Positions 8,250-42,674 of a stretch of DNA of 64,000 bases are shown here, one piece after another. Position 1 is the first letter of the stretch. Each line of letters opens with the position of its first letter. The stretch is taken from positions 1-64,000 of the forward strand of contig NZ_JADMKT010000081.1 of the NCBI RefSeq assembly GCF_016786255.1, written 5' to 3'. The translations under genes and the position numbers were made by a program. This stretch comes from Robertkochia sediminum (GTDB lineage Bacteria; Bacteroidota; Bacteroidia; Flavobacteriales; Flavobacteriaceae). The notes beneath the pieces were generated by a model. The model was not told the DNA's origin. It worked only from the letters and a program-made list of their open reading frames with translations, and ran no database searches.

Positions 8250-10208
8250 TTACAGCTTTTTATATGGATTAAAATTTAAGGATTGGAGGATGGAGTAATT
8301 CCCAGTTCTATCTTCATCGGATTTATCCAAACAGGTGAAATCTGAATTTTTTGAAATGTATTCCGGAACGATCTGTTTCAATTTTGAAACGATCATATTT
8401 CTGTCATTATATAGATTGAAAATACATAAGGCCTCGATCTTTGCTTTCAAATGTTCGTAATCGAGGTCTTTCACCTTACTAATAAGGATCTTGTCATGAT
8501 AAGTTGGCATGGTGTTCTCCCCATTAGCTAATAACTCTTCATACAACTTCTCTCCTGGCCTGAGTCCGGTGATCTGAATATCAATATCATCGGGATAATT
8601 CAAGCCGGATAGTTTGATCATATTTTTCGCAAGATCGAATATCTTCACCCTTTCACCCATATCAAATATGAATATCTCTCCCCCCTTACCCATACTACCG
8701 GCCTGTAAAACAAGTTGCGAGGCTTCCGGTATGGTCATAAAATAACGGGTGACTTCTTCATGGGTTACGGTTAGAGGTCCTCCTTGCTCTAATTGTTTAC
8801 GAAACAATGGGATCACCGATCCATTAGATCCCAGAACATTTCCAAAGCGAGTGGTGATGAATCTCGTGGCTTTAGTTTCTCTTTGCAATGCACCGATGTA
8901 GATCTCTGCAGTGCGTTTGGTCGCCCCCATAACATTGGTAGGGTTTACGGCTTTATCGGTAGACACAAGTACAAACTTACCTACCTTATGTTTTACGGCA
9001 GCATTCGCTAAAATCCTGGTCCCTACGACATTGATCTTAACGGCCTCATACGGATTTTCCTCCATGAGGGGCACATGCTTATAGGCTGCAGCGTGAAAAA
9101 TAATATCCGGCTCATAATTCGTAAGAATTGCATCTATTCCATGAGCATCTCTTACATCACTAACAATTACGGTAAAATCTTTTCTGCCTTCCCTTATAAA
9201 TTCTTGCTGCAGATCGTAAAGAGCCGACTCTGCAATGTCCAGGCATATCAGTTTTTTTATGGGGAAGTGATTAACCTGTCTGGCGATCTCACTACCTATA
9301 GAACCTGCAGCCCCGGTAACTAAAATGGTCTTGCCGGTAAATTCTTTCGCAAGTTCCCTGTTCTCTATATTTATAGGATTCCTTTGTAAAAGGTCTTCCA
9401 ACTGAACCTGCTTGATCTGGTTAAGTTGGATCTCCCCATTGATCCATTGACTAACAGGAGGAATGATCTTTACTCGTGGCACTAACTCGACCATTTCATT
9501 TATACTGCCCTGTAAATATCTCCCACTGGTATTAGGGATCGCAATAATGACCTCGTTAATGCCATAACGCTCAACAAAATTCTTATTGAATGCTGCTCTG
9601 GAGAGAATAGGTGCTCCATTGATACTACTACCCACCTTTGCCTTATTATCATCTATAAACGCAACTACACGAATGTTTTGTTTTAGGGAGTTCGCTAAGG
9701 CATTGTAGGTCATGATACCGGCATCACCTGCTCCATAGATCACAATGCGCTCTGTTAAGTGAAAATCACTCATTATGTATTTATAGGCCAGTTTAAAAAG
9801 CAAACGCGATGCTGCCAATGCCACCAGATTAAGTAATGCGTGCAAGATGATGGTTAGTTTAGGAATAGTAAACCCCGGGATAACATCAAAGGTGTTATTC
9901 ACCAGCAAAAGCAATACCGTAAGAAAGCTAATGACCCCAACCGCCAAAGTCACCTTAAACATATCCCGAACCCCGGTATATCGCAGAATTCCGCGGTATG
10001 AACCTGTGATTCCGAAACTGAACAACGAGATAAGACCAATGGCAATAATTCCTGTCATGAACCATTTAAACTCAAAGTTTAAAGTAAAATCAGACGAGAG
10101 GAAATAGGCTACAAAAAAGGTGAGCATGACCAAACCGGTGTCCATGGCCAATACCAGCCATTTGGAGCCATATTTTGGGATAAACAGGGGGAGTAAATTA
10201 TTTATCAT
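8250..10208 (-). CDS. CapD/PglF/WbpM-type membrane UDP-sugar 4,6-dehydratase
   Basis: The 652-aa protein has four N-terminal membrane helices (about residues 15-115), a first Rossmann-like domain (VIYGAGDAGIMTYNAL, about 153-168), and a catalytic short-chain dehydrogenase domain (ILVTGAAGSIGSEIARQV, about 294-311). This is the layout of WbpM, PglF and CapD. Family members convert UDP-GlcNAc to UDP-4-keto-6-deoxy-GlcNAc, the first step to bacillosamine or QuiNAc. The usual active-site Tyr of SDR enzymes is replaced by the family's STDKAVNPTNVMGATK segment (about 414-429). It starts within the last codon of the aminotransferase gene (4-nt overlap), so the two are translationally coupled, which supports a dehydratase-aminotransferase pathway. 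Confidence 0.92.
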   Translation of the reverse strand: MINNLLPLFIPKYGSKWLVLAMDTGLVMLTFFVAYFLSSDFTLNFEFKWFMTGIIAIGLISLFSFGITGSYRGILRYTGVRDMFKVTLAVGVISFLTVLLLLVNNTFDVIPGFTIPKLTIILHALLNLVALAASRLLFKLAYKYIMSDFHLTERIVIYGAGDAGIMTYNALANSLKQNIRVVAFIDDNKAKVGSSINGAPILSRAAFNKNFVERYGINEVIIAIPNTSGRYLQGSINEMVELVPRVKIIPPVSQWINGEIQLNQIKQVQLEDLLQRNPINIENRELAKEFTGKTILVTGAAGSIGSEIARQVNHFPIKKLICLDIAESALYDLQQEFIREGRKDFTVIVSDVRDAHGIDAILTNYEPDIIFHAAAYKHVPLMEENPYEAVKINVVGTRILANAAVKHKVGKFVLVSTDKAVNPTNVMGATKRTAEIYIGALQRETKATRFITTRFGNVLGSNGSVIPLFRKQLEQGGPLTVTHEEVTRYFMTIPEASQLVLQAGSMGKGGEIFIFDMGERVKIFDLAKNMIKLSGLNYPDDIDIQITGLRPGEKLYEELLANGENTMPTYHDKILISKVKDLDYEHLKAKIEALCIFNLYNDRNMIVSKLKQIVPEYISKNSDFTCLDKSDEDRTGNYSILQSLNFNPYKKL

Positions 10209-11338
10209 AATTCAAATGCTTTAAAGATCAGGTTGGTAATACGATTAAGGTCGTCTTCCGATAAATTAGAGCCACTGGGAAGGCAGAGACCCTTATCGAA
10301 CAGCTTCTCCGAAACACCATTAACATAGGCCGTTTTTTCCCGGAACACGGGCTGCAAATGCATGGGCTTCCACAAAGGACGAGATTCAATATTATGTTCG
10401 TCCAGATATAAACGAATGCGCTCGCGCATTTCAGTATTTTCCAATAGGATACAGGTAAGCCATCGATTCGAATAATACCCTTCAGGTTCTTGACAAAAGC
10501 TTACTCCTTCTAAGACATTTAGTCTGTCATAGTAAAACATGTAATTTCTTCTTCGTACTTCTACCCTGTCATCGAGTACTTCCATCTGCCCCCTTCCTAT
10601 GCCTGCCGTCACATTGCTCATACGGTAGTTATAACCAATATTGGAATGCTCATAGTGTGGCGCATGATCTCTTGCCTGCGTTGCTAGAAAAACTGCTTTT
10701 TCTTTAAGGCTTAAAGAAGGCGACACTAATGCTCCACCGCCCGAAGTGGTAATGATCTTATTGCCATTAAATGAAAGAGTAGCAAGATCACCGAAGGTAC
10801 CGCAGTTTTGATCGTTGAAACGACTTCCAAGCGCTTCAGCACTATCTTCAATTACAGGAATATTATATTTTTCAGAAAGCTGGTGTATTTCATTAACCTT
10901 ATAAGGCATACCATATAGATGGACTGCAATGATCGCCTTAGGCTTAATACCCTTTTCTAAATGGTCAAGAATTGAACGTTCTAATAATTCGGGTGAAAGG
11001 TTCCAGGTGTCTTCCTCACTATCTATAAAGACAGGGGTTGCACCTAAATATGTTATGGGATTAGCACTGGCCGCAAAAGTAAAGCTCTGGCAAAGTACAA
11101 TATCACCAGGACCAACGCCACACAAAATCAAGGCTAGATGAAGTGATGCGGTTCCTGAAGAAAGTGCCGCAACGTGGTGTGAGCCTCCAAGAAAATTCTC
11201 GAGATCTGATTCAAATCCCTGGACATTAGGACCCAAAGGAGCTATCCAGTTCGTACGGAAAGCTTCATTCACATAAAATTGCTCCCTGCCCCCCATATGA
11301 GGTGAAGAAAGCCAGATTTTGGTATTAGTTGCGATCAT
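10205..11338 (-). CDS. DegT/DnrJ/EryC1-family PLP aminotransferase (PglE-like)
   Basis: The 377-aa sugar aminotransferase probably converts the 4-keto sugar made by the neighbouring dehydratase to a 4-amino sugar using PLP and glutamate. Motifs are ALSSGTASLHLALILCGVGP (about residues 58-77), EDSAEALGSRF (about 166-176) and SFNGNKIITTSGGGALVS (about 188-205), whose Lys should carry PLP. Length matches the family. It is the first gene of the minus-strand operon, so the promoter should lie in 11339-11728. Exact sugar specificity cannot be read from sequence. PglE-like activity is inferred from the linked CapD/PglF and PglD-like genes. Confidence 0.9.
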   Translation of the reverse strand: MIATNTKIWLSSPHMGGREQFYVNEAFRTNWIAPLGPNVQGFESDLENFLGGSHHVAALSSGTASLHLALILCGVGPGDIVLCQSFTFAASANPITYLGATPVFIDSEEDTWNLSPELLERSILDHLEKGIKPKAIIAVHLYGMPYKVNEIHQLSEKYNIPVIEDSAEALGSRFNDQNCGTFGDLATLSFNGNKIITTSGGGALVSPSLSLKEKAVFLATQARDHAPHYEHSNIGYNYRMSNVTAGIGRGQMEVLDDRVEVRRRNYMFYYDRLNVLEGVSFCQEPEGYYSNRWLTCILLENTEMRERIRLYLDEHNIESRPLWKPMHLQPVFREKTAYVNGVSEKLFDKGLCLPSGSNLSEDDLNRITNLIFKAFEL

Positions 11339-22764: not shown

Positions 22765-22778
22765 AGTCGCTATGTACA
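22765..22778 (+). repeat. 14-nt start context shared with the second PglC gene
   Basis: AGTCGCTATGTACA spans the start codon of the first PglC-type gene and recurs exactly at 34241-34254 over the start of the second. The preceding base differs (C or T), but the one before that is again C. It may mark a duplication or a conserved initiation context. Confidence 0.6.
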
Positions 22779-29200: not shown

Positions 29201-32200
29201 AGATGCCCCAGGAAAAAAATCTGCCGACCTGCAGATCATTCACGATGGGATAAACAGTCCTTTGAACATTCCTCTTACGGCAGAGCTGGAACAAGCTAAG
29301 ATCGAGGAACCCCTGGTTAGGATCAATGCCGGAGGAACCGCAAATTTCCTGGCTACCGACGGAGGCCCTGTTTGGGAGGCAAACCCTGAAAATGGCATGT
29401 ATACGGGAGATAGCTATGTAGTCAATACAGGAAATAATTTTGAATCGGAATTTGATTTCGAACTCAGGGATACTGCAAGTATGCCCAATTATATAGACCG
29501 ACCAACCTTCGATGCGATCTTTGGAGCAGAGCGTTATGATCTGCCCGATGGTGAAGAGATGCAATATTCCATTCCTCTTGATAACAACACGTATTTGGTT
29601 CGCTTGTATTTGGGGACCAACTTCCAGGGTACAAGTTCGGTAGGGAGTAGGGTTTTCGACATTCTCATCGAAGGACAAGAGGTCCTAAACGAATTCGATC
29701 CGGTCGCAGCCTTTGGTTTTGGAAGTGCCGGAGTAGTTGAATTCCCTATAACACTGCAAGATGGTGTGCTTGACATTAGCTTTAATCATATTGTAGAGAA
29801 TCCCAACCTTTATGGTATAGAAATACTCGGGTATTCGTTTTATAACGGGATCAAGGCCCGGGCCCTTGCATTCCCGTTGGAAGGCCCTGCCCCATTAGAA
29901 ACACAATTTAACGGAAGTAGTTCCAGCGCGGTTAATAATATTAATTCCTATCTATGGAATTTTGACGATGGTACTACCTCCGACGAAATTAATCCATTGC
30001 ATACTTTTACTACCCCCGGCACCTATAATGTCACCTTAACAATATCTGATGATGCCAACGAGGATACCGACACGCTTGTAGTATCGGTAGAAGAACCTCT
30101 GGCACCGGAAGACTTTTCGATCCTGATCAATGCAGGAGGAGAAGAAGCTACATATAATGCTAAGGTCTTCGGTAAAGACGCCTACTACGATTCGGGAAGA
30201 GAATATGTTAATAAACAAGCTAAAGTTCCTAACATTTACAGAAGTGAACGAAATGGAAGTTCTAATGAACTAAACTATGAGGTCGCGCTCTCCAATGGTA
30301 ATTACGAGGTATCCCTGCATTTTGCTGAGATCTATTTTGGTGCAACAGGAGGGTCAGCAAGTTCGGAACCGGGACAACGAATTTTTGATGTTTACATTGA
30401 AGATAGTCTGGTACTCGATAATTACGATATCCTTGCTGAGGTAGGCTCCGAGGCTACAGACGTGAAAACATTCAATACAGTTATCACAGACAGGAAGCTT
30501 AATATTCGCTTCGATTCAGGTGCACAAACAGGTGGCGTAAACTACCCTAAGGTATCAGCCATCGAGATCAAAGGTTTTAATCCGAATAGCAAGTTCTTAC
30601 CCCTGGCCATAGCCGATATTCCCGACCAGTTTAATGATGTTGGAGAAACTCCCGACCTGGCTATAAACGCTTCAGGTGGCGATCCTGAAAAAAACTTCAC
30701 CTATGGGATATCCGGACAACCACCGGGGTTAGACATCGAACCCACGAACGGAATGATCATAGGGTCCATTGCCGAAGGAGCCAGAACGGGAGGCCCTAAT
30801 AACGACGGAGTTTATGAAGTTACGGTGACCGTTGGTAAATCATTAACCGATACCCTGAGCACAAAATTCAACTGGACCATTGCCGAAGCCTTAAATGCAT
30901 GGTTCGACAAGGATGAAAGCGAAAACTATACAGCACGACACGAATGTTCTTTTGTTCAGGCCGGTGATCATTTTTTCCTGATGGGAGGAAGAGAAAATGC
31001 TAAAAGCATTGACATCTATGATTACAATTCCAATACCTGGACTACTTTAGAAAATAATGCACCCTTCGAGTTCAACCATTTTCAGGCAGTAAGCTATCAG
31101 GGCCTCATATGGGTGATCGGGGCTTTCAACACCAATGATTTTCCGAATGAAACTCCCGCTTCAAATATTTGGATCTTCAATCCGCTCACAGAGGAATGGA
31201 AACAAGGACCTGAGATCCCTGAATCGCGACGCAGAGGTTCCACCGGTTTGGTAGTACATAACGATATCTTCTACATACTTGGAGGTAATAACGACGGTCA
31301 CGACGGGGGGTATGTCCCCTATTTCGACAGTTTTAACCCGGCAACAGGGGAATGGACCGTTCTGGCCGATGCTCCCCATGCCAGAGACCACTTTCACGCA
31401 GTGGTAGCTCAAAATAAACTCTATGCTATTGGAGGAAGATTATCAGGTGGGCCTGGTGGTGTATTCGCACCAACCATTCCGGAGGTCGATGTATTCGATT
31501 TCTCCAATAATACCTGGAGTACCCTTAGCGAATCCCGTAATCTTCCTACACCAAGGGCCGGTGCTGTTACCGTAAAGTTCAAAAATAAGATCTATGTGGC
31601 CGGAGGTGAGGCCAATAATCAGGAAGAAGCATTTAAACTAACAGAGATCTTTGATCCATTAACCCAGGTATGGTCCCAGGGTGATGACCTTAATCACGCT
31701 CGTCATGGCACCCAGGGAATTGCTTCCGGAAACGGGATCTTTGTAGTCGGAGGTTCACCCAGAAGAGGTGGCGGACAGCAAAAGAATATGGAATATTACA
31801 ATTATGATAATCCTTCAGGTATCGAACTTAACAAAAGTGAAATTCAACTTCCGGAGGAGCTCATTTTCAGTGCCGGTGAATCTATCGAAGTACAGGCTTT
31901 GATCACTGGGGGTAATATGGCCATATTCCCGGATTCTTTATCGGTTAAAGGTCCCAACGCAGACCTTTTTCAACTTGAGATCACGGGTCTGCCATTTCTA
32001 CTATCGCCAAACAGCACGTATGCCTTCAACATCAACTACCTGGGAACCGGACAATATGATTCGGCAACATTACATGTGTATTATAACGGTGGTCAGGAAA
32101 CTACCGCTGCCCTGACCACAGACCATATTCCTGTTATGACCGATCTGTTACCGGTATTTCGTATCAATACAGGAGGAAACCTGGTCAATGCCCTTGATGA

Positions 32201-34142
32201 GGGGCCTGACTGGCTTGGAGACATCAGTAATGGCGCACAGCAATATGAAGACTTCTCGGTAACTACCGGAAATGTATTTGGGGGAACAGAACTCAACTAT
32301 TTTGACCGTCACCCTTCTATTCCGGACTATATAGATCAGGATATTTTTGAAAAGCTCTTCTCAACAGAACGATATGATACCTCCTCTCCTCCTGAGATGG
32401 CGTACAGTATACCCCTTCCTAACGGAAACTACACGGTTCATCTATACTTTGGAACCTCCTACGAACCAACAAAAGATCTTGATAGCAGGATATTTACTAT
32501 CTCACTGGAAGGCCAGGAGGTAAATCCTTCCTTTGATGTCATTAGAAACTTTGGCTTTAAGGTTGCCGGAATGCTTTCTTACAGCACTACCGTCGAAGAT
32601 GGAGTGCTCGATATCGCATTTGGTAATGTTGTGCAAAATCCTTTTATAAATGCGATCGAGGTGATGGTAAATGCCAGAGAAATAAACGAGGATCCATTGG
32701 CTGTGATCACTTCCAGTGCAACTACCGGTTATACCCCTTTAACTATTAATTTTAGTGGGACTTCATCCCAGGATGACTTTGGTATTGAAAGTTATCAATG
32801 GGAGCTGGGCGAAGGTACTACAGCCGAAGGCGCAGAAGTTTCAAAAACATATGCCGAAGCCGGGATTTATCCGGTGGTATTGACCGTTACAGATATTTAC
32901 GGTCTTTCCGATACAGACACCACTTATATCGAGGTACTTAGACGACCTGATCCGGAACTTACTGTTAGCAATGACACTCTGGACTTTGGAACACAGATCA
33001 TCAATGGAGAGATCGCTTCCCTTAACCTATCCCTAGGGAATCTCCCTCAAACATTTAATGATCGTATTAGCATTATTGCCGTTACGGTGATGGGAGAGAA
33101 TGCTGCTATGTTTGCCAGCGACCTTGAATCTCCTCAGGATATCGACACCGGAGCACTGGCTGAAGGAGAGATCACATTTGATCCCCGTACAGTAATTCCG
33201 GGAGGAAAAAATGCATTGATCCAGATCGTACACAGCGGGGAGAATTCGCCCTCTGAAGTTATGCTTAGGGCCAACGTGATTAATGACCCGGAGTTAGATC
33301 CGTTGTATCGCATTAATATCGGTGGGGCTACTGCCGTAAAAGCTTCCGATGATGGACCGGACTGGGAAAAGAATCCGGAAGATGGATTCTACAAGGGAAC
33401 CTATTACAACCTTAATGGTGGGACGAACAGTCCAGGGGTATTAGACTATACTCAAAAAGGAACGTCTATTCCCTCCTATTTGAATGAAACTACATTTAAT
33501 GCACTTTATGCATCTCAACGAAGCAATTCGGAAACCGGTGAAGCAATGAATTTTGAACTCATTCTTCCCAATGGAGACTACATACTAAATTTGTTTAGCA
33601 GCAAATCAGAGCTACTGAATCATTCACCTCATTTGACCATTCAAGGGCAGGTCTATAGTGATATTCTCACTCAGCGATCGGTTCAAGAAGATGAAGCTTT
33701 GATGATGAGCTTCCCGGTGACAGTAACAAATGAGCAATTATTGATTGATATCCAATCAAATACCGGTGTATTTGCTTTGAACGCATTAGAAATACTTTCG
33801 CCCTCAGGAATAGCTCTGGAAGATCTTATTGCCTTTGAAGACGGTCCCGGTGAAAAAGAGCTTAACATCTTCCCTAATCCTTCAGATGGAGAGGTGAACT
33901 TTATTTATGGTAATGGAGGCTTGGAGCTTCAAAAAGTGCTGCTATTTGATATGGATGGAAGAATGATAAGAAATATTGATCCCTCTGCCATACCGAGAAC
34001 AGACGCCCTTACCAACAAAGATGGCTCAAGAATTTATACCCTTGAGTTAACCGGGTTGAGCCGGGGAGTTTATATTCTCGTTACGGAAGATGAGAACGGA
34101 GACCAGAAAAAAGCCAAATTGGTTATTGGAAGTACCCAATAA
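26232..34142 (+). CDS. Giant T9SS-secreted multidomain protein (propeller, malectin, PKD, Kelch)
   Basis: The 2636-aa protein has an N-terminal signal region ending near AQA (about residue 43) and a C-terminal type A sorting domain (LNIFPNPSDGEVNF, about 2541, to the end), so it should cross the outer membrane by the type IX system. Domains in order: a six-bladed sugar-dehydrogenase-like beta-propeller (about 50-590), Asp-rich thrombospondin-3 type calcium repeats (about 600-663), a beta-sandwich of unknown type (about 673-907), an HYDIN-like Ig domain (about 914-1020), malectin 1 (about 1026-1202), PKD 1 (about 1205-1287), malectin 2 (about 1295-1450), a putative Ig domain (about 1457-1550), Kelch repeats (about 1555-1856), an HYDIN-like domain (about 1863-1963), malectin 3 (about 1973-2147), PKD 2 (about 2155-2235), another HYDIN-like domain (about 2239-2350), and a degenerate malectin 4 (about 2358-2527). 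Malectin domains bind sugars, so a glycan-binding surface role is likely. Function of the propeller is unknown. Confidence 0.92.
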   Translation: MAMVLLLLSAISLKFRSLKFLSLRNALMLLFLAFGFQNQYAQAPSWGSAGLENENLINPTSLDFGPNEKLYVSQQDGLIWEFTIERDQAPAGEGSYTVTQANTITLIKNNTPNHQDDGNQNSTKKRQITGILATGTAANPILYVSSSDWRIGGKNEPGNDVNLDTNSGILSRLTWTGNAWEKVDLVRGLPRCEENHSNNGMELFTKNGKEYLLLQQGGNTNQGAPSNNFAGSSEYYLAGAILIIDLTQLQQIEDANGGPFTDLRDNNTKFIYDLPTINDPERQDITNAHPEFPYGPGHPLFNATIDIGDPFGGNNGLNQSFPEAGGPVQIFSPGYRNAYDIVITEQGDIYTFDNGPNGGWGGPPFIRTANGGVKGDHYNTTVNLAAGDYITNEFNYSNGVTHGDQLHYVGTINDPNNTYYAGHPVPIRAFPSKAQVIEYEYNGNDWVVSGKYDWENLIQGVSGYFQNNFTMNDFPDDGRQALYTTDDPGNPDLNILDIVNSSTNGMCVYTASNFNNQLKGNIFAASFNGNINRYELDVNTNQLTAKNNTYLSGFGSIPLDVIAQGDDEVFPGTIWAATYGADNITVFEPADFGICYQPGDAQFDPEADYDKDGFTNADEIANGSDHCSAGSKPSDADNDFISDLTDPDDDNDGIPDLQDNFALDPFNGTNTDLPVTYPFWNNDPGTGMFGLGFTGLMLDPTGQTNYLDMYDEENMSFGGAGGKATIDFTTSGDALETQNTQEYAFQFGVNIDENSEPFTVHGKIETPFNGVSPLEGQSYGIYVGKGDQDNYVKVALMNGTLPGDELDGIEILLESEGVVESQIINVPGLVDAIGVDLYLGIDPKTRTLDVAYSLDNGKSVSGIGNQTFLPADFFDPGDDQGLAVGIISTAGAAEEGYTATWDFLNVTEDQPGRITARPDAIDFGFLTVNSSPAEVILEVINLGGSDDPPVTITSINIINDPEGLFEVNSDLLYEIGSGVIQKIPVRINPGDAPGKKSADLQIIHDGINSPLNIPLTAELEQAKIEEPLVRINAGGTANFLATDGGPVWEANPENGMYTGDSYVVNTGNNFESEFDFELRDTASMPNYIDRPTFDAIFGAERYDLPDGEEMQYSIPLDNNTYLVRLYLGTNFQGTSSVGSRVFDILIEGQEVLNEFDPVAAFGFGSAGVVEFPITLQDGVLDISFNHIVENPNLYGIEILGYSFYNGIKARALAFPLEGPAPLETQFNGSSSSAVNNINSYLWNFDDGTTSDEINPLHTFTTPGTYNVTLTISDDANEDTDTLVVSVEEPLAPEDFSILINAGGEEATYNAKVFGKDAYYDSGREYVNKQAKVPNIYRSERNGSSNELNYEVALSNGNYEVSLHFAEIYFGATGGSASSEPGQRIFDVYIEDSLVLDNYDILAEVGSEATDVKTFNTVITDRKLNIRFDSGAQTGGVNYPKVSAIEIKGFNPNSKFLPLAIADIPDQFNDVGETPDLAINASGGDPEKNFTYGISGQPPGLDIEPTNGMIIGSIAEGARTGGPNNDGVYEVTVTVGKSLTDTLSTKFNWTIAEALNAWFDKDESENYTARHECSFVQAGDHFFLMGGRENAKSIDIYDYNSNTWTTLENNAPFEFNHFQAVSYQGLIWVIGAFNTNDFPNETPASNIWIFNPLTEEWKQGPEIPESRRRGSTGLVVHNDIFYILGGNNDGHDGGYVPYFDSFNPATGEWTVLADAPHARDHFHAVVAQNKLYAIGGRLSGGPGGVFAPTIPEVDVFDFSNNTWSTLSESRNLPTPRAGAVTVKFKNKIYVAGGEANNQEEAFKLTEIFDPLTQVWSQGDDLNHARHGTQGIASGNGIFVVGGSPRRGGGQQKNMEYYNYDNPSGIELNKSEIQLPEELIFSAGESIEVQALITGGNMAIFPDSLSVKGPNADLFQLEITGLPFLLSPNSTYAFNINYLGTGQYDSATLHVYYNGGQETTAALTTDHIPVMTDLLPVFRINTGGNLVNALDEGPDWLGDISNGAQQYEDFSVTTGNVFGGTELNYFDRHPSIPDYIDQDIFEKLFSTERYDTSSPPEMAYSIPLPNGNYTVHLYFGTSYEPTKDLDSRIFTISLEGQEVNPSFDVIRNFGFKVAGMLSYSTTVEDGVLDIAFGNVVQNPFINAIEVMVNAREINEDPLAVITSSATTGYTPLTINFSGTSSQDDFGIESYQWELGEGTTAEGAEVSKTYAEAGIYPVVLTVTDIYGLSDTDTTYIEVLRRPDPELTVSNDTLDFGTQIINGEIASLNLSLGNLPQTFNDRISIIAVTVMGENAAMFASDLESPQDIDTGALAEGEITFDPRTVIPGGKNALIQIVHSGENSPSEVMLRANVINDPELDPLYRINIGGATAVKASDDGPDWEKNPEDGFYKGTYYNLNGGTNSPGVLDYTQKGTSIPSYLNETTFNALYASQRSNSETGEAMNFELILPNGDYILNLFSSKSELLNHSPHLTIQGQVYSDILTQRSVQEDEALMMSFPVTVTNEQLLIDIQSNTGVFALNALEILSPSGIALEDLIAFEDGPGEKELNIFPNPSDGEVNFIYGNGGLELQKVLLFDMDGRMIRNIDPSAIPRTDALTNKDGSRIYTLELTGLSRGVYILVTEDENGDQKKAKLVIGSTQ

Positions 34143-34240: not shown

Positions 34241-34254
34241 AGTCGCTATGTACA
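34241..34254 (+). repeat. Second copy of the 14-nt PglC start context
   Basis: AGTCGCTATGTACA is identical to 22765-22778 and likewise spans the start codon of a PglC-type gene. The genes diverge soon after the start codon at DNA level while keeping protein motifs. Confidence 0.6.
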
Positions 34255-34883
34255 GATCATTTTTCAAGCGAAGTTTTGACCTTTTATTGGCTGTTTCACT
34301 TATTATTTTGTTTAGCCCTGTAATTATTACAGTAACCCTGATCTTATGGAAAACAGCTCATAAGAAACCTTTCTTTTTCCAGGAACGTCCTGGTAGATAT
34401 GAAAAAATATTTCGCATCGTTAAGTTCAAGACCATGAATGACCAAACCGATGTTGATGGTAATTTACTACCGGATGCTGAGCGATTAACCTCGGTTGGGG
34501 CTTTTCTCAGAAAGACCTCGCTTGACGAATTGCCTCAGCTATTTAATGTAGTTAAAGGGGAAATGAGTTTTATTGGGCCCAGGCCATTGCTTAAAAGATA
34601 CCTCCCCTACTACACGGCTCAGGAGCGCCTAAGACACAGTGTAAGGCCGGGAATAACCGGGTTGGCACAGGTTTCCGGCCGTAACTTCCTGCCATGGAAT
34701 GAACGACTTCAAATGGATGTAGATTATGTTCAAAGCATGAGTCTTGTGAATGACCTCCGCATAATCCTTCTCACCGTAAAAAATGTGGTAAGTAGAAAAG
34801 ATATAGAAGTGGTCCCTGATTCGAAGATGCTGGATCTGGAAACATATAGAAAACAAGGCAGCAGAAATTATTTTGTAGGTTAA
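34248..34883 (+). CDS. PglC-type phosphoglycosyl transferase (second copy)
   Basis: The 211-aa protein is a clear paralogue or analogue of the enzyme at 22772. It has a re-entrant hydrophobic helix (LAVSLIILFSPVIITVTLIL, about residues 14-33), KIFRIVKFKTMN (about 52-63), TSLDELPQLFNVVKGEMSFI (about 90-109) with the Asp-Glu pair, GPRPLLKRYL (about 110-119) and RPGITGLAQVSGRN (about 133-146). It should also start a lipid-linked glycan by transferring a phosphosugar to undecaprenyl phosphate. It lies ahead of the three-part fusion whose first domain is PglD-like, a gene order that recalls pglC-pglD pairs. Two such enzymes in one locus suggest two repeat units or alternative starter sugars. Confidence 0.91.
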   Translation: MYRSFFKRSFDLLLAVSLIILFSPVIITVTLILWKTAHKKPFFFQERPGRYEKIFRIVKFKTMNDQTDVDGNLLPDAERLTSVGAFLRKTSLDELPQLFNVVKGEMSFIGPRPLLKRYLPYYTAQERLRHSVRPGITGLAQVSGRNFLPWNERLQMDVDYVQSMSLVNDLRIILLTVKNVVSRKDIEVVPDSKMLDLETYRKQGSRNYFVG

Positions 34884-35119
34884 TATTTTACATAACTCTT
34901 CAAACTCAGATCAACTTACCCCTGCCCCTGTTATTATAGCGGTAAGATCAAGGAGAAGAAGTTATCCATCAACCTAATAATCAGTTTAATGAACGAAATT
35001 CCTCTTTAATAAGAAATTTCCTCATTACATTTTACCTATCGTTCTAATGAACGAGTATATCCCTCATACCTAAACAACCAAGACCCGATTAAAGCAGATT
35101 GACAAAAATTACCCATGTA

Positions 35120-38100
35120 ATGAAAAAACAGCAAGTCAAGATCTATGGTGATGGAGGTCATGCCCGAGTAGTCAGGCAAGTCCTGGAAGAAAACGGGATT
35201 AATATTCAGGTAGTTATTAATGACTTTCCGATAAAAGGAAAAAAAAATCTACTTTCAGGAATTGCCGAAAATAATATCACCACACTTAATTCCCATATTC
35301 AGGACAGTACTTTAGTGATAGCAATTGGGAACAATGAAATACGTAAACGCATAAGCAAACAATTACGTAATGCTACATTTCAGATCGTTAAGCACCGGTC
35401 GGCAGTGGTCGCTCCAGACGTAACTATTGGAGAGGGTTCCGTGATCTTTGCGGGTGCAATTATCCAAACCAATACCACGATCGGAAAGCATGTGATCATC
35501 AATACAGCCGCCAGTATTGATCACGATAATCATATAGGTGATTATGTACATATCTCACCCAATGCCACCCTTACCGGTCATGTAACTATTGGTGAAGGGA
35601 GTCATATTGGCGCCGGGGCCGTGATCATACCCGGTGTAAAAATTGGTAAATGGTGTACCATTGGTGCTGGAGCTGTGATCATCAAAGATATCCCTGACCA
35701 TTCAACCGTAGTTGGCAACCCAGGTAGAATAATCAAACGAAAAGTTCCGGAGATAAAGGCTTCCCAACGTTTAATCGAAACCGGTTTCGACCTAGCCTTT
35801 ATCGGAGCAGGAATATCGACTGCTTTCACCCTACTCAATTATCTGCAGCGCAATCCAATCGATAAAACACCTGTAAAAATAGCTGTGATCGATAAGAACG
35901 ACGAATTTTTTACTGGCATACCCTATGGAAAGCGATCGGGCGAATCGACCCTGCTATTGAGTCCGCTTTCCGACTTCTTACCGGAAAAAGAATTAAACAG
36001 GTTCGTTGAATGGCTAAAGGTCAATAAAGATTGGTTGTTAAAAAGGCTTCAAGATCACGGGGGTATCCGCACACACGAATGGATGGTCAATAACCAGAAG
36101 AAACTGGATGCAGGAAAGTGGAAATCACTACACATCCCAAGGGTCTTTTTTGGCTATTATATTCAGGAGCGTCTTCAAAACGCCATTAGAGAGGCGGAAA
36201 ACCATCGTAGAGCAGAAATTGTACTGCTTAAAGAAAACATTACCCGACTTGAAAAGATTGGGTCAAATTTTGTACTCACCGGTGAATCAGGAATACTACA
36301 CTCCAAAAGAGTGATCTTGGGCATTGGAGCTCCAAGAAAGATCAGATTGAATACTGTTTTTGAATCTTCACAGCTCAGCACACAAAGCCTGGTGATCTCC
36401 AATCCCTATGAAAAAGGAATGGATCACACCATAAAAAGCATTCTCAGGTTCGCCAGTAAAACCAGAAAAAGCAAGCCCCGTGTCGTACTATTAGGGGCTA
36501 ATGCCAGTGCCCTGGAACTACTCTATAAAATGACCGACCTGCAGGGTATTGATAGTAGGATCGAAAAATACTACCTTCTTTCAACACATGGGATAACCCC
36601 TAATACCCTCGAAAATAATCACAGGTACATAACCTTCACTCCAAAACATACGCTGGCCCTGAAGTCTGTAAAACAGCTTACTGCAAAGATCATAGCTCAA
36701 GCTGTAAATAAAGACCTCACCGATGCAGAAGCATTGGATATCGATCACGCAATTTCAGGTGAACCCATATCCAGGGCCTTCAAACCGCTGATCCAAAAGC
36801 TTACCCCGGAAGAAAAAGAAAAGTTCGCTTGTTATTATGGCGATGAGATCGGTCGAAGGCAACGTATTGCGGGATGTCACTACAACAATGCCCTCGAAAA
36901 CCTAAAAAAGGAAGGACGATTAGAGCACATTCGCGGTAATTTCGAAACACTTCTAAATACAGGGTATCATCCTGTTAGCGTGCAATACACGACTTCCATA
37001 GATGATAGATCTGAAAGTGAATCGATATCAGCCGATATCGTGATCAATTGCCTGGGAGCTATCAAGTTGACAGATCCGCAGGTTCCGGAGATCATTCAGA
37101 ATATGGTTGCCTCTGGTAAGGCTTCGATCAATCCATCACAACGCGGTATCAGAGTTAATCAAAACCTTGAATCAGCACCCGGAATCCATATTATTGGTCC
37201 GTTGCTCACGGGGAATGTGATCGACGGAAATCCGATCTGGCACGCTGAACATTGCGGAAGGGTGATCGAACTAACCGAAGTTTTGGCTAACAGACTGGCA
37301 TCTTTACCTGCTGATCAAAGAGATACCAGGTTACGATTAACAGTCCATGAAATAAGTAGTCAACACGACATAACAGCCTACAAAAACCTTCTAAACGATT
37401 ATGAGGATCATCCTTACTACCGTTATGAATACTTTGCACATCACAGTAAAGATGAAGGCGAGTTGATCGTGCTGGAACTTCGGGATCCTCACAGGAGCTT
37501 GTGTATTATGCCGCTCTTAAAACGTCCGATCAAAACCCTGGGCAAAACGAAACTTTACGATGTGATCTCCCCTTATGGATACAGCGGTCCCTTGTTCCGA
37601 AAAGGCATCAACTCACAGACCAAAAAACGATTCTGGGAACTAGTGGATTCATGGTACCAAAAACAACATATAATCAGTGAATTTATACGGTTTAATCACC
37701 TCAACAATCACGAAGGATACAACGGTATATTACTACCAACCTTACATAATGTCAAGGGGAAGATCCTGAAAGATGCAGATGAGCAATGGAAGGGATTCAG
37801 GTCTAAGGTGCGTAATAACTACCGAAAAGCGGTAAACGATAAGTTATATTTCAGGGCCTATACAGGAAATGAGATCACCATGGAGCATATTAGGTCCTTC
37901 CGGGATATCTACATTGAAACCATGGACCGCAATCACGCCTCCAGTAATTATTTCTTCGATCTGGAATACTTCACCCAACTCATTGGCTCCGATCCGCAGA
38001 GTTTTATGCTGGCCTTCGCTTTAAAAGAAGAGACCATCATATCTGCCGAACTCATTATTCTCCATAACGATACCATGTTCGCTTTTCTGGGAGGCACTAA

Positions 38101-38401
38101 AAAGGCCTATTTCTCCAGCAGACCAAATGATTTTCTCAGGGTGGAGATCACCAAAAAGGGAAGAGCAAAAGGAATGCTATGGTACATACTTGGGGGTGGG
38201 ATCAAAGACTTGGATGGATTGTACAAAAGCAAGAAATATCTTTTTCCGAAAGATACTGACTTCACCTTCTATACCGGAAGGAAGATCGTAAATAAAGAGG
38301 TTTACGTAACCCTTTGCAAGGAATTAGACCTGGATACACAACGTACCAATGCATTTTTTCCATTGTACAGAAGTGTAAAGGATCTGCAGCGCGTACGATA
38401 A
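35120..38401 (+). CDS. Three-part fusion: PglD-like acetyltransferase + FAD/NAD(P)-binding + FemAB/GNAT-like domain
   Basis: The 1093-aa protein joins three parts. (1) Residues about 1-207 are a PglD/NeuD-type sugar acetyltransferase: VKIYGDGGHARVVRQVL at the N terminus, then left-handed beta-helix repeats, with the catalytic-His type segment NTAASIDHDNHIGDYVHI (about 132-149). PglD acetylates the 4-amino group of UDP-amino sugars. (2) Residues about 220-730 are a FAD/NAD(P)-binding domain of the NAD_binding_9 type: LAFIGAGISTAFTLLNYL (about 222-239), IPYGKRSGESTLLLSPLSDF (about 265-284), and a C-terminal GIHIIGPLLTGNVIDG (about 691-706). (3) Residues about 745-1090 resemble BioF2/FemAB-like GNAT transferases, with IMPLLKRPIKTLGKTKLYDV and KVRNNYRKAVNDKLYFRAY. 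The start is the ATG at 35120; a longer frame opens at a TTG at 35099 but adds only seven residues. The combination is unfamiliar to me, and its joint reaction is unknown. Confidence 0.88.
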   Translation: MKKQQVKIYGDGGHARVVRQVLEENGINIQVVINDFPIKGKKNLLSGIAENNITTLNSHIQDSTLVIAIGNNEIRKRISKQLRNATFQIVKHRSAVVAPDVTIGEGSVIFAGAIIQTNTTIGKHVIINTAASIDHDNHIGDYVHISPNATLTGHVTIGEGSHIGAGAVIIPGVKIGKWCTIGAGAVIIKDIPDHSTVVGNPGRIIKRKVPEIKASQRLIETGFDLAFIGAGISTAFTLLNYLQRNPIDKTPVKIAVIDKNDEFFTGIPYGKRSGESTLLLSPLSDFLPEKELNRFVEWLKVNKDWLLKRLQDHGGIRTHEWMVNNQKKLDAGKWKSLHIPRVFFGYYIQERLQNAIREAENHRRAEIVLLKENITRLEKIGSNFVLTGESGILHSKRVILGIGAPRKIRLNTVFESSQLSTQSLVISNPYEKGMDHTIKSILRFASKTRKSKPRVVLLGANASALELLYKMTDLQGIDSRIEKYYLLSTHGITPNTLENNHRYITFTPKHTLALKSVKQLTAKIIAQAVNKDLTDAEALDIDHAISGEPISRAFKPLIQKLTPEEKEKFACYYGDEIGRRQRIAGCHYNNALENLKKEGRLEHIRGNFETLLNTGYHPVSVQYTTSIDDRSESESISADIVINCLGAIKLTDPQVPEIIQNMVASGKASINPSQRGIRVNQNLESAPGIHIIGPLLTGNVIDGNPIWHAEHCGRVIELTEVLANRLASLPADQRDTRLRLTVHEISSQHDITAYKNLLNDYEDHPYYRYEYFAHHSKDEGELIVLELRDPHRSLCIMPLLKRPIKTLGKTKLYDVISPYGYSGPLFRKGINSQTKKRFWELVDSWYQKQHIISEFIRFNHLNNHEGYNGILLPTLHNVKGKILKDADEQWKGFRSKVRNNYRKAVNDKLYFRAYTGNEITMEHIRSFRDIYIETMDRNHASSNYFFDLEYFTQLIGSDPQSFMLAFALKEETIISAELIILHNDTMFAFLGGTKKAYFSSRPNDFLRVEITKKGRAKGMLWYILGGGIKDLDGLYKSKKYLFPKDTDFTFYTGRKIVNKEVYVTLCKELDLDTQRTNAFFPLYRSVKDLQRVR

Positions 38402-38442: not shown

Positions 38443-39447
38443 CTACTGATACTCCTCGTGTAAATTCAAAGGGATCTGTTTTTGAACTATAGGTGGTTTT
38501 TGTTCATTAACAAGATATGCTGCGATCGCTTTAGCAACCAGTTCGCGTCCAAGATCATTCCAATGCTGATCGTAGATGAGGGTTACCGGAGCCTTTTCTT
38601 GCCTTAACACCTTCCCGTAATCGATATAAGGAATTCCTGCAGTTAGGAGATAATTTTTTAAATCTTCAGAAAGCAATTGTTCATCCACCAGAAATACGAT
38701 CTTTTCATGGTTTAATCCCGGCTGACCGACCAGATCCTTAAAATTCTCCAATGTTTTATGTTCCAGACCCTGATCTTTATTCCCTTCAGACTTCTCTTTA
38801 CCTCCACTACTTCCTGAGATAGCATGCTTCCAGGATACCAATTGTTTGGTCATACTATTAAGGAACCCAATATTTTGAAGATACACCAGAAGCTTGCTAT
38901 GCTGAAGTAAACCATACATACCCTTCTGTAGTTTGAGTCGTTCTTCAGAAACCCAATAGCGATTCCTTAACAGGTCGTCAGGATAATGCAGATAGACTAC
39001 AACCATATCGATCTTTTCGAAGAGTTCATCATAGGCTTGTACCAAATGCAGTTCATCGGCCAGATCGTAGCCAGCATATCCAAATTCATAGACTGCGAGC
39101 TCAGGCATTCGGCGTTCGATCTTCTTCCCTATTGAATTGTAATAGTCCTGATGAAAACCTTCAATAAAGGAATCGCCTATTAGTGCTACTTCATAGGTCT
39201 CTGTTTGCGGGTCGAATTCTCGGTATGAGTTAAATCCGAGGTCATTGATGCGGTATTCTGAAAAATTTTGCCGTCTGTTTCCGGTAGTCACGAATCCCGA
39301 TTGCCCGGGAACCCACTTCTCTACACCTTTCTCATCGATCATTCGCTCGGGTGTTCCCTTATGGAGGTGTAAACCCCTGACCAATGCTTCTACCAGCAGA
39401 AGGATCAGAAAACCATAGGCTAATATTTTAAAAAATAATCGCTTCAT
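38443..39447 (-). CDS. SGNH/GDSL-like hydrolase-fold protein (MBOAT partner)
   Basis: The 334-aa protein has one N-terminal membrane helix (ILAYGFLILLLVEALV, about residues 8-23) and a periplasmic SGNH domain. Block I is VALIGDSFIEGFHQ (about 87-100), with the Ser nucleophile. The distal Asp-His block is IYDQHWNDLGRELVAKAI (about 293-310). Such proteins, like AlgJ/AlgX-type partners, work with MBOAT acyltransferases to transfer acyl groups onto exported glycans. The gene overlaps the MBOAT stop by one base, so the two are surely co-translated. It converges with the fusion gene at 35120, with a 41-nt gap and no clear shared terminator. Confidence 0.85.
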   Translation of the reverse strand: MKRLFFKILAYGFLILLLVEALVRGLHLHKGTPERMIDEKGVEKWVPGQSGFVTTGNRRQNFSEYRINDLGFNSYREFDPQTETYEVALIGDSFIEGFHQDYYNSIGKKIERRMPELAVYEFGYAGYDLADELHLVQAYDELFEKIDMVVVYLHYPDDLLRNRYWVSEERLKLQKGMYGLLQHSKLLVYLQNIGFLNSMTKQLVSWKHAISGSSGGKEKSEGNKDQGLEHKTLENFKDLVGQPGLNHEKIVFLVDEQLLSEDLKNYLLTAGIPYIDYGKVLRQEKAPVTLIYDQHWNDLGRELVAKAIAAYLVNEQKPPIVQKQIPLNLHEEYQ

Positions 39448-40898
39448 TAAAATTGAAAATAGATAAAGGAACGATCTGATCCACTATCGTAGAACAGCAA
39501 TAAGGCAAAAACAATAAGCGTATAGGTCACCAAACGAACAGCTCCGGTTTTGATAGGAACAGGGTTTCTTTCATCTGCCCTTATATAATATTCATAAGCT
39601 ATAAAGCATAGCAGCATTAAAAAATAATCGATCATGCGATACCCTTGCGGATGCATATAAAGCGGTAAGGACCACTGCCCTATTAAGCCCTTAAAATAGC
39701 CTATGGCATGTCCGAGGTCTTCTGCCCGGAAAAATATCCAGCTTAGGGTTACCATAAAAAATGTGTTGAGCACAGCAAGGATCTCTTTAGCACCCGGAAA
39801 TTCGTGTTCCCCAAGGAAAGAGCCTTTATACTTTCGGTTCTCTCCTAATAAGAACAGGGGTATGAATAGCAAGGCGTGAAATCCGCCCCACACCACGAAG
39901 GTCCAATTGGCTCCATGCCAGAGACCACTCACCAGAAAAATGATAAAAATATTCCTGATGGCCTTCCACTTCCCTTCCCGGGATCCCCCCAAGGGAATAT
40001 AGAGGTAATCGCGGAACCAGGATGAAAGCGATATATGCCATCGTCTCCAGAACTCTCCGATATTTCTGGAAAAATAAGGGAACCTGAAATTAGACCTCAA
40101 CTCGATACCAAAGAGCTTGGCCGTACCAATGGCCATATCAGAATACCCGGAAAAATCGCCATAGATCTGAAAACCAAAAAATACAGCTCCCATAAAAAGT
40201 ACAGGGGCAGCATGCAATTCGTAATGGTTAAAAATATCATCTACTATGGGCGCGAGGGCATCGGCAATGACTACCTTTTTCAACATCCCGTAAAGAAAAA
40301 GCCGTAGACCAGCTACCGACTGTTCGTAATTAAATTTTCGTTTACCCGAGATCTGCGGTAGTAAATGAGATGATCGTTCAATTGGCCCTGCCACCAACTG
40401 CGGAAAAAAGCTCACAAAAGCTGCAAAATCTACAAAATTATTGGTAGGCTGTACCTTACCGCGATAAATGTCAAAACAATACGACATGGTCTGGAAGGTA
40501 TAGAAGGAGATCCCAACCGGAAGTATGATTTTTAAGGTCCACACACTGTTCATCTCAAGCCCAAGAGTATGTAACCCATCGACCATAGATCCAACAAAAA
40601 AGTTGTAGTATTTGAAGAATCCAAGCACACCGAGATTAAATACCACACTTACCCAAAGCCAAAGCCTTGCCCTACGTTTATCGGGTAATGCCTTTGCCAC
40701 CATTTTCCCGACATAAAAATCGACAATGGTACTAGCCAGGATCAAAAAAAGAAATCGCCAATCCCACCAGCCATAAAAGATATAGCTACCAACAAGCAGG
40801 AGGATGTTCTGCCAAAGATGTCTGCGCCTGAAGGCCACCCAATACAGGAAAAAGATCAGGGGCAGGAATAAAAAGTATGCTAACGAATTAAAAAGCAC
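39447..40898 (-). CDS. MBOAT-family O-acyltransferase (AlgI-like)
   Basis: The 483-aa polytopic membrane protein belongs to the MBOAT family that passes acyl groups across the inner membrane to glycans or peptidoglycan. It starts FNSLAYFLFLPLIFFLYWVA, like AlgI and PatA. It carries QIYGDFSGYSDMAIGTAKLF (about residues 249-268), FRRWHISLSSWFRDYLYIPL (about 289-308) and the catalytic-His segment SGLWHGANWTFVVWGGFHAL (about 332-351). The length is typical. It follows the carbamoyltransferase by 30 nt and precedes the SGNH partner, making a decoration module. Whether the acceptor is the exopolysaccharide encoded next door is inference. Confidence 0.92.
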   Translation of the reverse strand: MLFNSLAYFLFLPLIFFLYWVAFRRRHLWQNILLLVGSYIFYGWWDWRFLFLILASTIVDFYVGKMVAKALPDKRRARLWLWVSVVFNLGVLGFFKYYNFFVGSMVDGLHTLGLEMNSVWTLKIILPVGISFYTFQTMSYCFDIYRGKVQPTNNFVDFAAFVSFFPQLVAGPIERSSHLLPQISGKRKFNYEQSVAGLRLFLYGMLKKVVIADALAPIVDDIFNHYELHAAPVLFMGAVFFGFQIYGDFSGYSDMAIGTAKLFGIELRSNFRFPYFSRNIGEFWRRWHISLSSWFRDYLYIPLGGSREGKWKAIRNIFIIFLVSGLWHGANWTFVVWGGFHALLFIPLFLLGENRKYKGSFLGEHEFPGAKEILAVLNTFFMVTLSWIFFRAEDLGHAIGYFKGLIGQWSLPLYMHPQGYRMIDYFLMLLCFIAYEYYIRADERNPVPIKTGAVRLVTYTLIVFALLLFYDSGSDRSFIYFQF

Positions 40899-40928
40899 GT
40901 GGCAGGTTCTCTTTTAAATGGTTTATGT

Positions 40929-42674
40929 TTATCCGGCTACTGCCGTTCTTTCTGAATCAATCATAAGATCTCTGATATCTTTTTGTCCTTTATGTAATAG
41001 AAAATCTCCTATTACCAGAGCATCCAGACCTGTAGAGAAGAAACACCGTATGGCATCCTGGGGAGATTCAACCACCGGTTCTCCCTGAATGTTAAAACTA
41101 GTATTCAGAACCACGGGAACCCCTGTTCGCTCTCCCAGCTTTTTAATTAGATCATAATACCTGGGGTGCAATTCCTCCCTTACCGTTTGCAGTCGGGCAC
41201 TTCCATCTACATGGGTCACGGCCGGGATCACGGCTTGCTTCTCTGGTCTTACCTGACACACTTTGAGCATAAATGGTGCTTCCACCTCAAGATCGAAAAA
41301 TTCATCTTTCGCTTCGATGATGGCAGAAGGAGCAAATGGACGGTAAGCCTCTCTGAACTTCACCTCGGCATTGATCTTGTCCTTCATTTGCGGAAAGGCC
41401 GGATTGGCAAGAATACTTCTGCTCCCCAAAGCCCTTGGTCCGATCTCCATCTTACCCTGGAACCATCCTATGATCTTTCCTTTTTCAAGTAAGGCAGAAG
41501 CCGCCTCGCAAACATCGTCAAGTCGTTCATAACGCAACTTAGCACCTTTTAGTACCCTTTCGATCTCATTGTTGGTATACGAAGTCCCTACATATGGATC
41601 TAAATGCACATAAGACCGGGACTGTTTCAGTATGCCGTTATAGAGGTAATAGGCCGCACCGATCGCTGTACCATTATCCCCGGCGGCAGGCATTACATAT
41701 ACATCTTTAAATTTGCTATCGCGAACAATGCGACCGTTCATAACGCTATTTAATGCAACCCCTCCCGAGAGCACCAGGTAGTCGGCCTTTGTTCTTTCAT
41801 AAAGTATATCGCAGATCTCCAATACCCTATCTTCCAAAACTGCCTGAAAAGCCGCTGCCATATTCTTATGGCGGTCTTCAAAAGGTTCCCCGTGATTTCG
41901 TCCCGGACCAAAGGTCTTATAGAATTTATCAGAGAGGCGGCGCCAGTGCATGTTTTGAAAATTAAACCAGCTTAGGTCAAAATGCAGTTGTCCGTTGCTG
42001 TCGACCTTCACCATGGATTCAACCTCCTTGCGATACACCTCCGGATCGCCCATGGGGGCCAGACCCATCGTTTTACCTTCATCATAAGAGGTTCTGAATC
42101 CACAATACTGGGTTACTGCCTCGTAGAACGAACCTAAACTATGTGGAAAAAAGCTCTCGCCGAGACATGAAACATCTTCATCCTTACCATATCCCATCCA
42201 GGTAGTTGCCCATTCTCCGGAACCATCGATCCCCAGCAATGCTGCCTCGCGATAGGGTGACACGTAGAATGAACCGGGAGCATGACTAAAATGGTGCGGA
42301 ATAAAATGAACTTCAGGTCCATCACTTTTTTTGTCCCAATGGTAATGAAACCAATTCCAGAAACTCTTTTGCTTATTATAGGCATGAACGAATTCATGAT
42401 TTACGAACGGCTTAAAGGTCCTTAGATTAGACAAACAGTACCTCGATTTTTTTCCGAGGTTATGGGTGGGTTGTATAGACACTGCAATATGGTCAATATC
42501 ATGATACGATAATCCCGCGATCTGTAAACAACGATCGATTGCTTTCATGGGGAATACCCTGGTATGTTTATCCCTGTTGAGCCGCTCTTCTTCTATAGCC
42601 GCCAACAGCTCACCATCAACGACCAAGCAAGCGGTCGAGTCGTGAAAATAGTAGTTGAGTCCTAATATTACCAT
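40929..42674 (-). CDS. Carbamoyltransferase (NodU/CmcH family)
   Basis: The 581-aa enzyme should transfer a carbamoyl group from carbamoyl phosphate, through carbamoyl-AMP, to a hydroxyl of a sugar or other metabolite. The N-terminal ASKHA-like domain has LGLNYYFHDSTACLVVDGEL (about residues 4-23), FIPHHFSHAPGSFYVSPYRE (about 126-145, metal-binding His residues) and LGIDGSGEWAT. The C-terminal TobZ/YrdC-like part has GWFQGKMEIGPRALGSRSIL (about 405-424). The length matches NodU and TobZ. It is followed by MBOAT and SGNH genes. Members next to MBOAT genes are common in Bacteroidota glycan loci; the natural acceptor is unknown. Confidence 0.92.
   Translation of the reverse strand: MVILGLNYYFHDSTACLVVDGELLAAIEEERLNRDKHTRVFPMKAIDRCLQIAGLSYHDIDHIAVSIQPTHNLGKKSRYCLSNLRTFKPFVNHEFVHAYNKQKSFWNWFHYHWDKKSDGPEVHFIPHHFSHAPGSFYVSPYREAALLGIDGSGEWATTWMGYGKDEDVSCLGESFFPHSLGSFYEAVTQYCGFRTSYDEGKTMGLAPMGDPEVYRKEVESMVKVDSNGQLHFDLSWFNFQNMHWRRLSDKFYKTFGPGRNHGEPFEDRHKNMAAAFQAVLEDRVLEICDILYERTKADYLVLSGGVALNSVMNGRIVRDSKFKDVYVMPAAGDNGTAIGAAYYLYNGILKQSRSYVHLDPYVGTSYTNNEIERVLKGAKLRYERLDDVCEAASALLEKGKIIGWFQGKMEIGPRALGSRSILANPAFPQMKDKINAEVKFREAYRPFAPSAIIEAKDEFFDLEVEAPFMLKVCQVRPEKQAVIPAVTHVDGSARLQTVREELHPRYYDLIKKLGERTGVPVVLNTSFNIQGEPVVESPQDAIRCFFSTGLDALVIGDFLLHKGQKDIRDLMIDSERTAVAG

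Follow-up and report, generated by a model that had tools for sequence, protein, structure and literature searches.

Introduction

Class B N-hydroxylating monooxygenases (NMOs), among them FzmM/CreE, PvdA, SidA, DesB and KtzI, have a helical substrate domain inserted into a fold of two dinucleotide domains, and in known pathways N-hydroxylases act on the free amine ahead of acylation, an analogous case being the IucD/IucB-type pairs, which hydroxylate and then acylate lysine. In FzmM the substrate domain is inserted in the nicotinamide adenine dinucleotide phosphate (NADPH) domain and the substrate site is arginine-rich (PMC10404684). Among FemX-like enzymes of natural-product pathways, the substrate of VlmA is a hydroxylamine and that of Orf11 an amino-sugar antibiotic (PMC12945691), and the valanimycin pathway also has a flavin N-hydroxylase, VlmH (PMC7347517). 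Here we compare with these systems a gene of Robertkochia sediminum (Flavobacteriaceae; assembly GCF_016786255.1, contig NZ_JADMKT010000081.1, positions 1 to 64,000, hereafter the window), whose product of 1093 residues joins a PglD-type N-acetyltransferase, a flavin adenine dinucleotide (FAD)/NAD(P)H domain and a FemAB/FemX-like transferase. This trio is genuine and rare, yet its operon is a common one, of which it is a variant. The sequences show which domains are present, that their motifs are intact, that the genes are linked in an operon and that they have fused repeatedly. The reading that we favour, at roughly even confidence, is a tailoring enzyme that N-hydroxylates a nucleotide-linked 4-amino sugar with coupled N-acylation, its FemAB part adding an aminoacyl or acyl group, where we infer chemistry, substrate, order of steps and acyl donors alike. 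Of wider interest is the function thereby proposed for an uncharacterised family of flavoproteins common to marine flavobacteria and mycobacteria.

The three-part gene

The gene and its parts have the following positions in the window:

35120..38401, + strand, three-domain fusion protein of 1093 aa, uninterrupted frame from the first ATG
35099..38401, + strand, alternative start of the three-domain frame (TTG at 35099)
35120..35764, + strand, domain 1, PglD/NeuD-type left-handed beta-helix N-acetyltransferase (TIGR03570; PDB matches 4m98, 4ea7 and 3bss)
35786..37324, + strand, domain 2, FAD/NAD(P)H domain PF13454 (by Pfam, structure model, Foldseek and motifs)
36644..36910, + strand, helical insert within the NADPH-binding portion of domain 2 (residues 291-379 of the model, 509-597 of the whole protein)
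37331..38398, + strand, domain 3, FemAB/FemX-like transferase (by profile comparison with FemX)

A Pfam search of the translated frame, in which all reported domains lay above the gathering cut-offs, gave PglD_N (residues 6-82, E 4.6e-13) with Hexapep (E 6.9e-17), NAD_binding_9 (PF13454; 226-403, E 8.7e-14) and FemAB_like (894-988, E 4.4e-8) with Acetyltransf_6 (893-1029, E 4.7e-6). Pfam and NCBIfam thereby bear out the original prediction of three folds in one frame of 1093 residues, and motif and domain checks agree with its statement that the motifs of each part are intact. Most relatives have these genes separate or fused pairwise, as would be expected if a frameshift or assembly error had fused separate genes; however, the orthologue of Robertkochia marina, from an independent assembly, is the same three-part frame (L031:10384-13647; 1087 aa, 54% identity over the full length) with no internal stop, which excludes the sequencing frameshift and leaves the artefact next to no chance. 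Three other Robertkochia genomes examined gave weak, partial matches only, and the FAD domain is single copy in the window's own genome.

Domain 1 scores 208.1 bits against the NCBIfam model NeuD_NnaD (TIGR03570, NeuD/PglB/VioB family sugar acetyltransferase; cut-off 160.8) and can be aligned with Neisseria PglB, PerB and Campylobacter PglD. Its catalytic-type His134 (codon 35519-35521) aligns with the DHD histidine of 4m98 and with the PerB histidine that is changed in 4eaa and 4eab. With PglD_N, beta-helix and this histidine all present, it is by its sequence an intact PglD-type N-acetyltransferase with predicted acetyl-CoA-dependent activity, and differs from PglD, NeuD and PerB in being covalently joined to the FAD and FemX-like domains.

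The C-terminal half of domain 3 matches FemX in profile comparison (E 5.7e-14 over 193 positions), and Lys1038 (codon 38231-38233), kept in 9/9 close relatives, aligns with the catalytic Lys305 of FemX. The earlier description of a BioF2/FemAB-like C terminus thus stands as to the FemAB type, whereas the domain resembles FemX aminoacyl-tRNA transferases more closely than BioF2 or an acyl-CoA GNAT of generic type. The FemX catalytic lysine is absent from the paralogues FemAB3, FemAB4 and FemAB5, the three examined, of which two are in locus L034 and one in L033. Unlike FemX, VlmA and Orf11, the Robertkochia domain is encoded in an extracellular polysaccharide cluster, and its use of tRNA is putative. 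For an N-hydroxylase that works alongside a FemX-like transferase there is a precedent, in logic, in valanimycin, which uses VlmH together with VlmA; VlmH belongs to another flavin class.

Fold and class of the FAD domain

Motif and conservation scans of the FAD domain covered 59 sequences, from which an AlphaFold2 model was also built (mean predicted local distance difference test 88, predicted template modelling score (pTM) 0.88). The FAD motif GxGxx (GAGIST, residues 229-234) and the NAD(P)H motif GxxxSA (GANASA, 459-464) are conserved, and in the secondary structure of the model the predicted helical insert, with a conserved basic GRRQR segment and the invariant Arg582, interrupts the NADPH domain. 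When the model was compared with the PDB by Foldseek, the first nineteen matches were all N-hydroxylating monooxygenases (E 3e-15 down), with SsDesB, FzmM and lysine, ornithine, putrescine and cadaverine N-hydroxylases at the top. VIA-align superposed 452 residues with FzmM (Z 20.8, root-mean-square deviation 4.9) and 372 with PvdA (Z 20.8, deviation 3.7), and the gap in coverage between these two and thioredoxin-reductase-like chains is largely the helical insert. At the profile level HHalign showed a weak preference for Lys/Orn N-hydroxylase (probability 39.5) over thioredoxin reductase (9.1). The fingerprint of flavin-containing and Baeyer-Villiger monooxygenases, FxGxxxHxxx[WYF], occurs in 0/59 sequences, and Pfam found no match to PF13434, the known NMO family, in the 1093-aa protein. 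Designer pentatricopeptide repeat proteins in the PDB also matched residues 586-633, which was discarded as chance similarity, being without support in profile searches.

The domain thus shares with class B NMOs the two dinucleotide domains, the inserted helical substrate domain (predicted in Robertkochia), the GxxxSA NADPH motif, a basic helix in the substrate domain and the best Foldseek matches, whereas the gene partners of the latter belong to siderophore and phosphonate pathways and those of the PF13454 domain are nucleotide amino-sugar enzymes. Because fold and gene context point the same way, an N-hydroxylating monooxygenase is the best-supported class for the modelled domain, though unproven. 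The chemistry would be of the same kind as that of the nitrososynthases, N-oxygenases of antibiotic amino sugars, namely N-oxidation of a nucleotide amino sugar, but these have an acyl-CoA-dehydrogenase fold in place of the two-dinucleotide-domain fold of PF13454. In literature on sugar N-hydroxylation and on bacillosamine with FemAB we found no such enzyme described.

Gene context across phyla

Genes of the PF13454 FAD family have amino-sugar genes as neighbours in three pathways: PglF/PglE/PglD in flavobacteria, FdtA-FdtB in Mucilaginibacter and a mycobacterial operon of aminotransferase and N-formyltransferase. Across phyla the constant partner is an aminotransferase, usually with an N-acyl or N-formyl transferase, and FemAB is not constant. 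In flavobacterial loci the order may be FAD-PglE-PglF (L106) or a PglD-FAD fusion, FemAB, PglE and PglF consecutively (L084). The Mucilaginibacter FAD gene directly follows FdtA (3,4-ketoisomerase) and FdtB (aminotransferase) and so occupies what we take to be the position of an FdtC-type acetyltransferase.

In mycobacteria, where 9/148 genomes of the genus have the family, the gene ahead of FAD encodes a sugar N-formyltransferase with a match to the solved Mycobacterium tuberculosis Rv3404c structure (E 3e-127), and the FAD gene has genes for a DegT aminotransferase and for a glycosyltransferase beside it; in another mycobacterium, a relative with 30% identity also has DegT, at a distance of 2 kb. 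The mycobacterial protein beside the Rv3404c-type enzyme is about 26-28% identical to the middle domain of the fusion and has an aminotransferase and an N-formyltransferase as neighbours, but is unfused, PglD and FemAB being absent from the locus. Rv3403c has been reported as a hypothetical protein of 533 residues (PMC6116745). Since the FAD operons of L126, L138 and other mycobacterial loci are syntenic with Rv3404c-Rv3403c-Rv3402c, the FAD family should include Rv3403c, which is probably a member. In mycobacteria the FAD family lies between a sugar aminotransferase and a sugar N-formyltransferase of structurally solved type. One genome (G892) was considered as M. tuberculosis itself, but its formyltransferase, though close to 4pzu/5vyq, has many differences and marks a relative only. 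A 936-residue frame around the FAD gene of a distant mycobacterial locus (L137) was likewise rejected as another fusion, being a high-GC frame extension.

Distribution and fusion history

When the FAD-domain alignment was searched against some 85,000 species genomes, at least 79 loci matched; the survey is skewed to close relatives, and our counts refer to the 77 of 79 listed loci (named genomes) with a recognisable FAD frame. A single FAD-FemAB protein as query of genome contigs found no relative, whereas the FAD-domain alignment did, and full-length FAD-FemAB matches were few (among 60 genomes of relatives and another 395 from the class). The FAD domain stands alone in 30 of the 77 loci and is otherwise found as PglD-FAD (23), FAD-FemAB (21), FAD-FemAB-FemAB (2) and PglD-FAD-FemAB (1, R. 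marina). PglD, PglC and FemAB lie in the same frame or at most three same-strand genes away in 66, 65 and 58 of these loci, respectively. Most of the exceptions nevertheless have amino-sugar genes. Flavobacterial loci usually read pglC-pglD-FAD-femAB, and in many of them another FemAB comes next, as do SGNH and MBOAT genes that run convergently. Fusions of PglD with FemAB that have no FAD domain are found as well (L037, L107).

Among the matches listed the three-part form occurs only in Robertkochia, and it forms one clade (100/100) in the FAD-domain tree. On the same tree the starred branches imply that FAD-FemAB and PglD-FAD each changed three times or more, with long-branch placement unsure. 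Given these pairwise fusions and the gene order shared with relatives, the three-part protein is a further step in the repeated fusion of adjacent genes and no isolated oddity. The original prediction knew of no described enzyme with this order of domains; the trio is indeed rare, but pairwise fusions that track gene order are ordinary and its parts make up a common flavobacterial operon. Such repeated 'Rosetta stone' fusions tie the uncharacterised PF13454 flavoproteins to amino-sugar enzymes and to a concrete, testable reaction.

Fusion could also be a mere convenience of co-expression, with three ordinary, uncoupled enzymes working on different sugars or positions, in keeping with the unfused parts of many Aquimarina and with a three-domain model that is without confident contacts. 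However, every neighbouring pair has been fused in different lineages, as expected of enzymes that gain from proximity, and we consider mere convenience improbable.

Several variants were seen in passing. Wocania (L080 and L100) encodes a FAD-FemAB-FemAB fusion of 1236 residues, which is another three-part arrangement, and in L034, L071, L083 and L085 several FemAB-like genes stand in tandem downstream of FAD-FemAB. In L054, L056, L096 and other loci of Aquimarina and Flavobacteriaceae, an acyl carrier protein of 80 residues, an AMP-binding ligase and a GNAT are encoded directly upstream of pglC-pglD-FAD-femAB. This suggests a carrier-bound acyl donor, and because these genes precede the operon in relatives, different lineages may use different acyl donors.

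Proposed reaction and alternatives

Three further genes of the window enter the proposal:

34248..34883, + strand, PglC-like phosphoglycosyl transferase (Bac_transf, PF02397, E 2.3e-58), by the gene order of relatives the usual upstream neighbour of pglD-FAD
8250..10208, - strand, PglF-like UDP-GlcNAc 4,6-dehydratase (Polysacc_synt_2 and CoA_binding_3 by domain search), likely substrate source
10205..11338, - strand, PglE/LegC-like aminotransferase (DegT family, PF01041), likely maker of the UDP-4-amino sugar

The aminotransferase scores 373.6 bits against TIGR04181 (LegC), under its cut-off of 420. The link to UDP-4-amino sugar chemistry that had been drawn before is supported. In the proposed sequence of events, PglF and the PglE/LegC-type enzyme of the cluster would make a UDP-4-amino sugar, whose free amine, seated in the helical substrate domain, would then be hydroxylated by the FAD domain as a single-component, NADPH-dependent enzyme in which reduced FAD binds O2. 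The PglD domain would N-acylate the hydroxylated nitrogen from acetyl-CoA to give an N-hydroxy-N-acyl (hydroxamate-type) sugar, the FemX-like domain would attach an aminoacyl residue taken from tRNA, or else an acyl residue, to the sugar or to its hydroxylamine, and the neighbouring PglC-like enzyme would put the sugar on a lipid carrier. Of these, the three reactions of the fusion protein itself, and the sequence in which they occur, are the least secure. The first proposal, that the protein would acetylate, oxidise and acylate in that order, found no support, as the middle domain resembles N-hydroxylases that act before acylation; because known N-hydroxylases use the free amine, oxidation of the nitrogen followed by acylation is the more likely order by analogy.

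A number of observations weigh against the N-hydroxylation of a nucleotide sugar. To our knowledge, glycans of flavobacteria or mycobacteria are not known to contain an N-hydroxylated sugar, though no glycan database was consulted; the FAD profile gave no significant sequence match to solved N-hydroxylases or the PDB, class B NMOs belonging to PF13434 and the Robertkochia domain to PF13454; and the PglF and PglE genes of the window are 24 kb from the fusion gene on the opposite strand. The full-length model (pTM 0.56) has no confident domain arrangement or contacts and gives no evidence for a shared active-site channel, for which the original prediction had suggested looking. In VIA-align, finally, YpdA and thioredoxin reductases reach Z 22-23 over about 310 residues against 20-21 for N-hydroxylases, slightly higher because of the two common dinucleotide domains.

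This last comparison bears on the reading of the FAD domain as a reductase, dehydrogenase or other non-N-hydroxylating oxidoreductase of a nucleotide sugar or acyl group, for example in ring-carbon oxidation or keto reduction, as the two-dinucleotide fold is common to reductases and monooxygenases. Yet CxxC is found in 0/59 sequences (CxxxxC was not scanned), thioredoxin reductases are without the helical insert of about 90 residues, N-hydroxylases lead the Foldseek ranking and the constant gene partners are aminotransferases and N-acyltransferases, so that we regard such an oxidoreductase as rather unlikely. Less probable still is N-hydroxylation of a small donor, such as aspartate in an FzmM-like reaction, whose product FemAB or an acyl carrier protein system would move to an unoxidised sugar. 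FzmM is among the nearest folds, and genes for an AMP-binding enzyme and an acyl carrier protein flank the operon in Aquimarina and others, but in the mycobacterial, Mucilaginibacter and Galbibacter loci, which have no FemAB close by, the FAD gene is still with amino-sugar genes, and the window genome is without a close relative of the AMP-ligase of that cluster (best 26%).

The proposed N-hydroxylation of a nucleotide sugar may be extended, by analogy, to the logic of valanimycin: the amine would be N-hydroxylated, an amino acid would pass from tRNA onto the hydroxylamine, and a sugar with an N-O or N-N bond (hydroxamate, hydrazine, azoxy) would enter the surface polysaccharide, which would make the FAD family, Rv3403c-type members included, a new class of nucleotide-amino-sugar N-oxygenases. 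We consider this full extension unlikely. If the flavoprotein does N-hydroxylate nucleotide sugars, marine Flavobacteriaceae would widely have surface polysaccharides with N-O groups, and the product of the mycobacterial operon could be tested directly with purified enzymes.

Other genes of the window

The polysaccharide cluster also has Wzz, export and Wzy-type genes. A second PglC-like sugar transferase (22772-23389, +) accompanies that at 34248-34883 (+), and two per cluster, as in many Aquimarina loci, suggest two different initiating sugars. At 38443-42674 (-) lie genes for an SGNH (AlgX-like) protein, an MBOAT protein and a NodU-type carbamoyltransferase, whose place beside the operon is conserved in distant flavobacteria (L049, L117, L044). 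Within the cluster, 26232-34142 (+) encodes a protein of 2636 residues in which inspection by eye shows stretches resembling kelch and PKD sequences and a C terminus like that of type IX secretion cargo, possibly a glycosylated or secreted product. An IS110-type transposase (364-1449, -) marks the edge of the cluster, and at 45232-48156 (-) a glycoside hydrolase family 3 domain and a beta-lactamase-type domain are fused in one frame.

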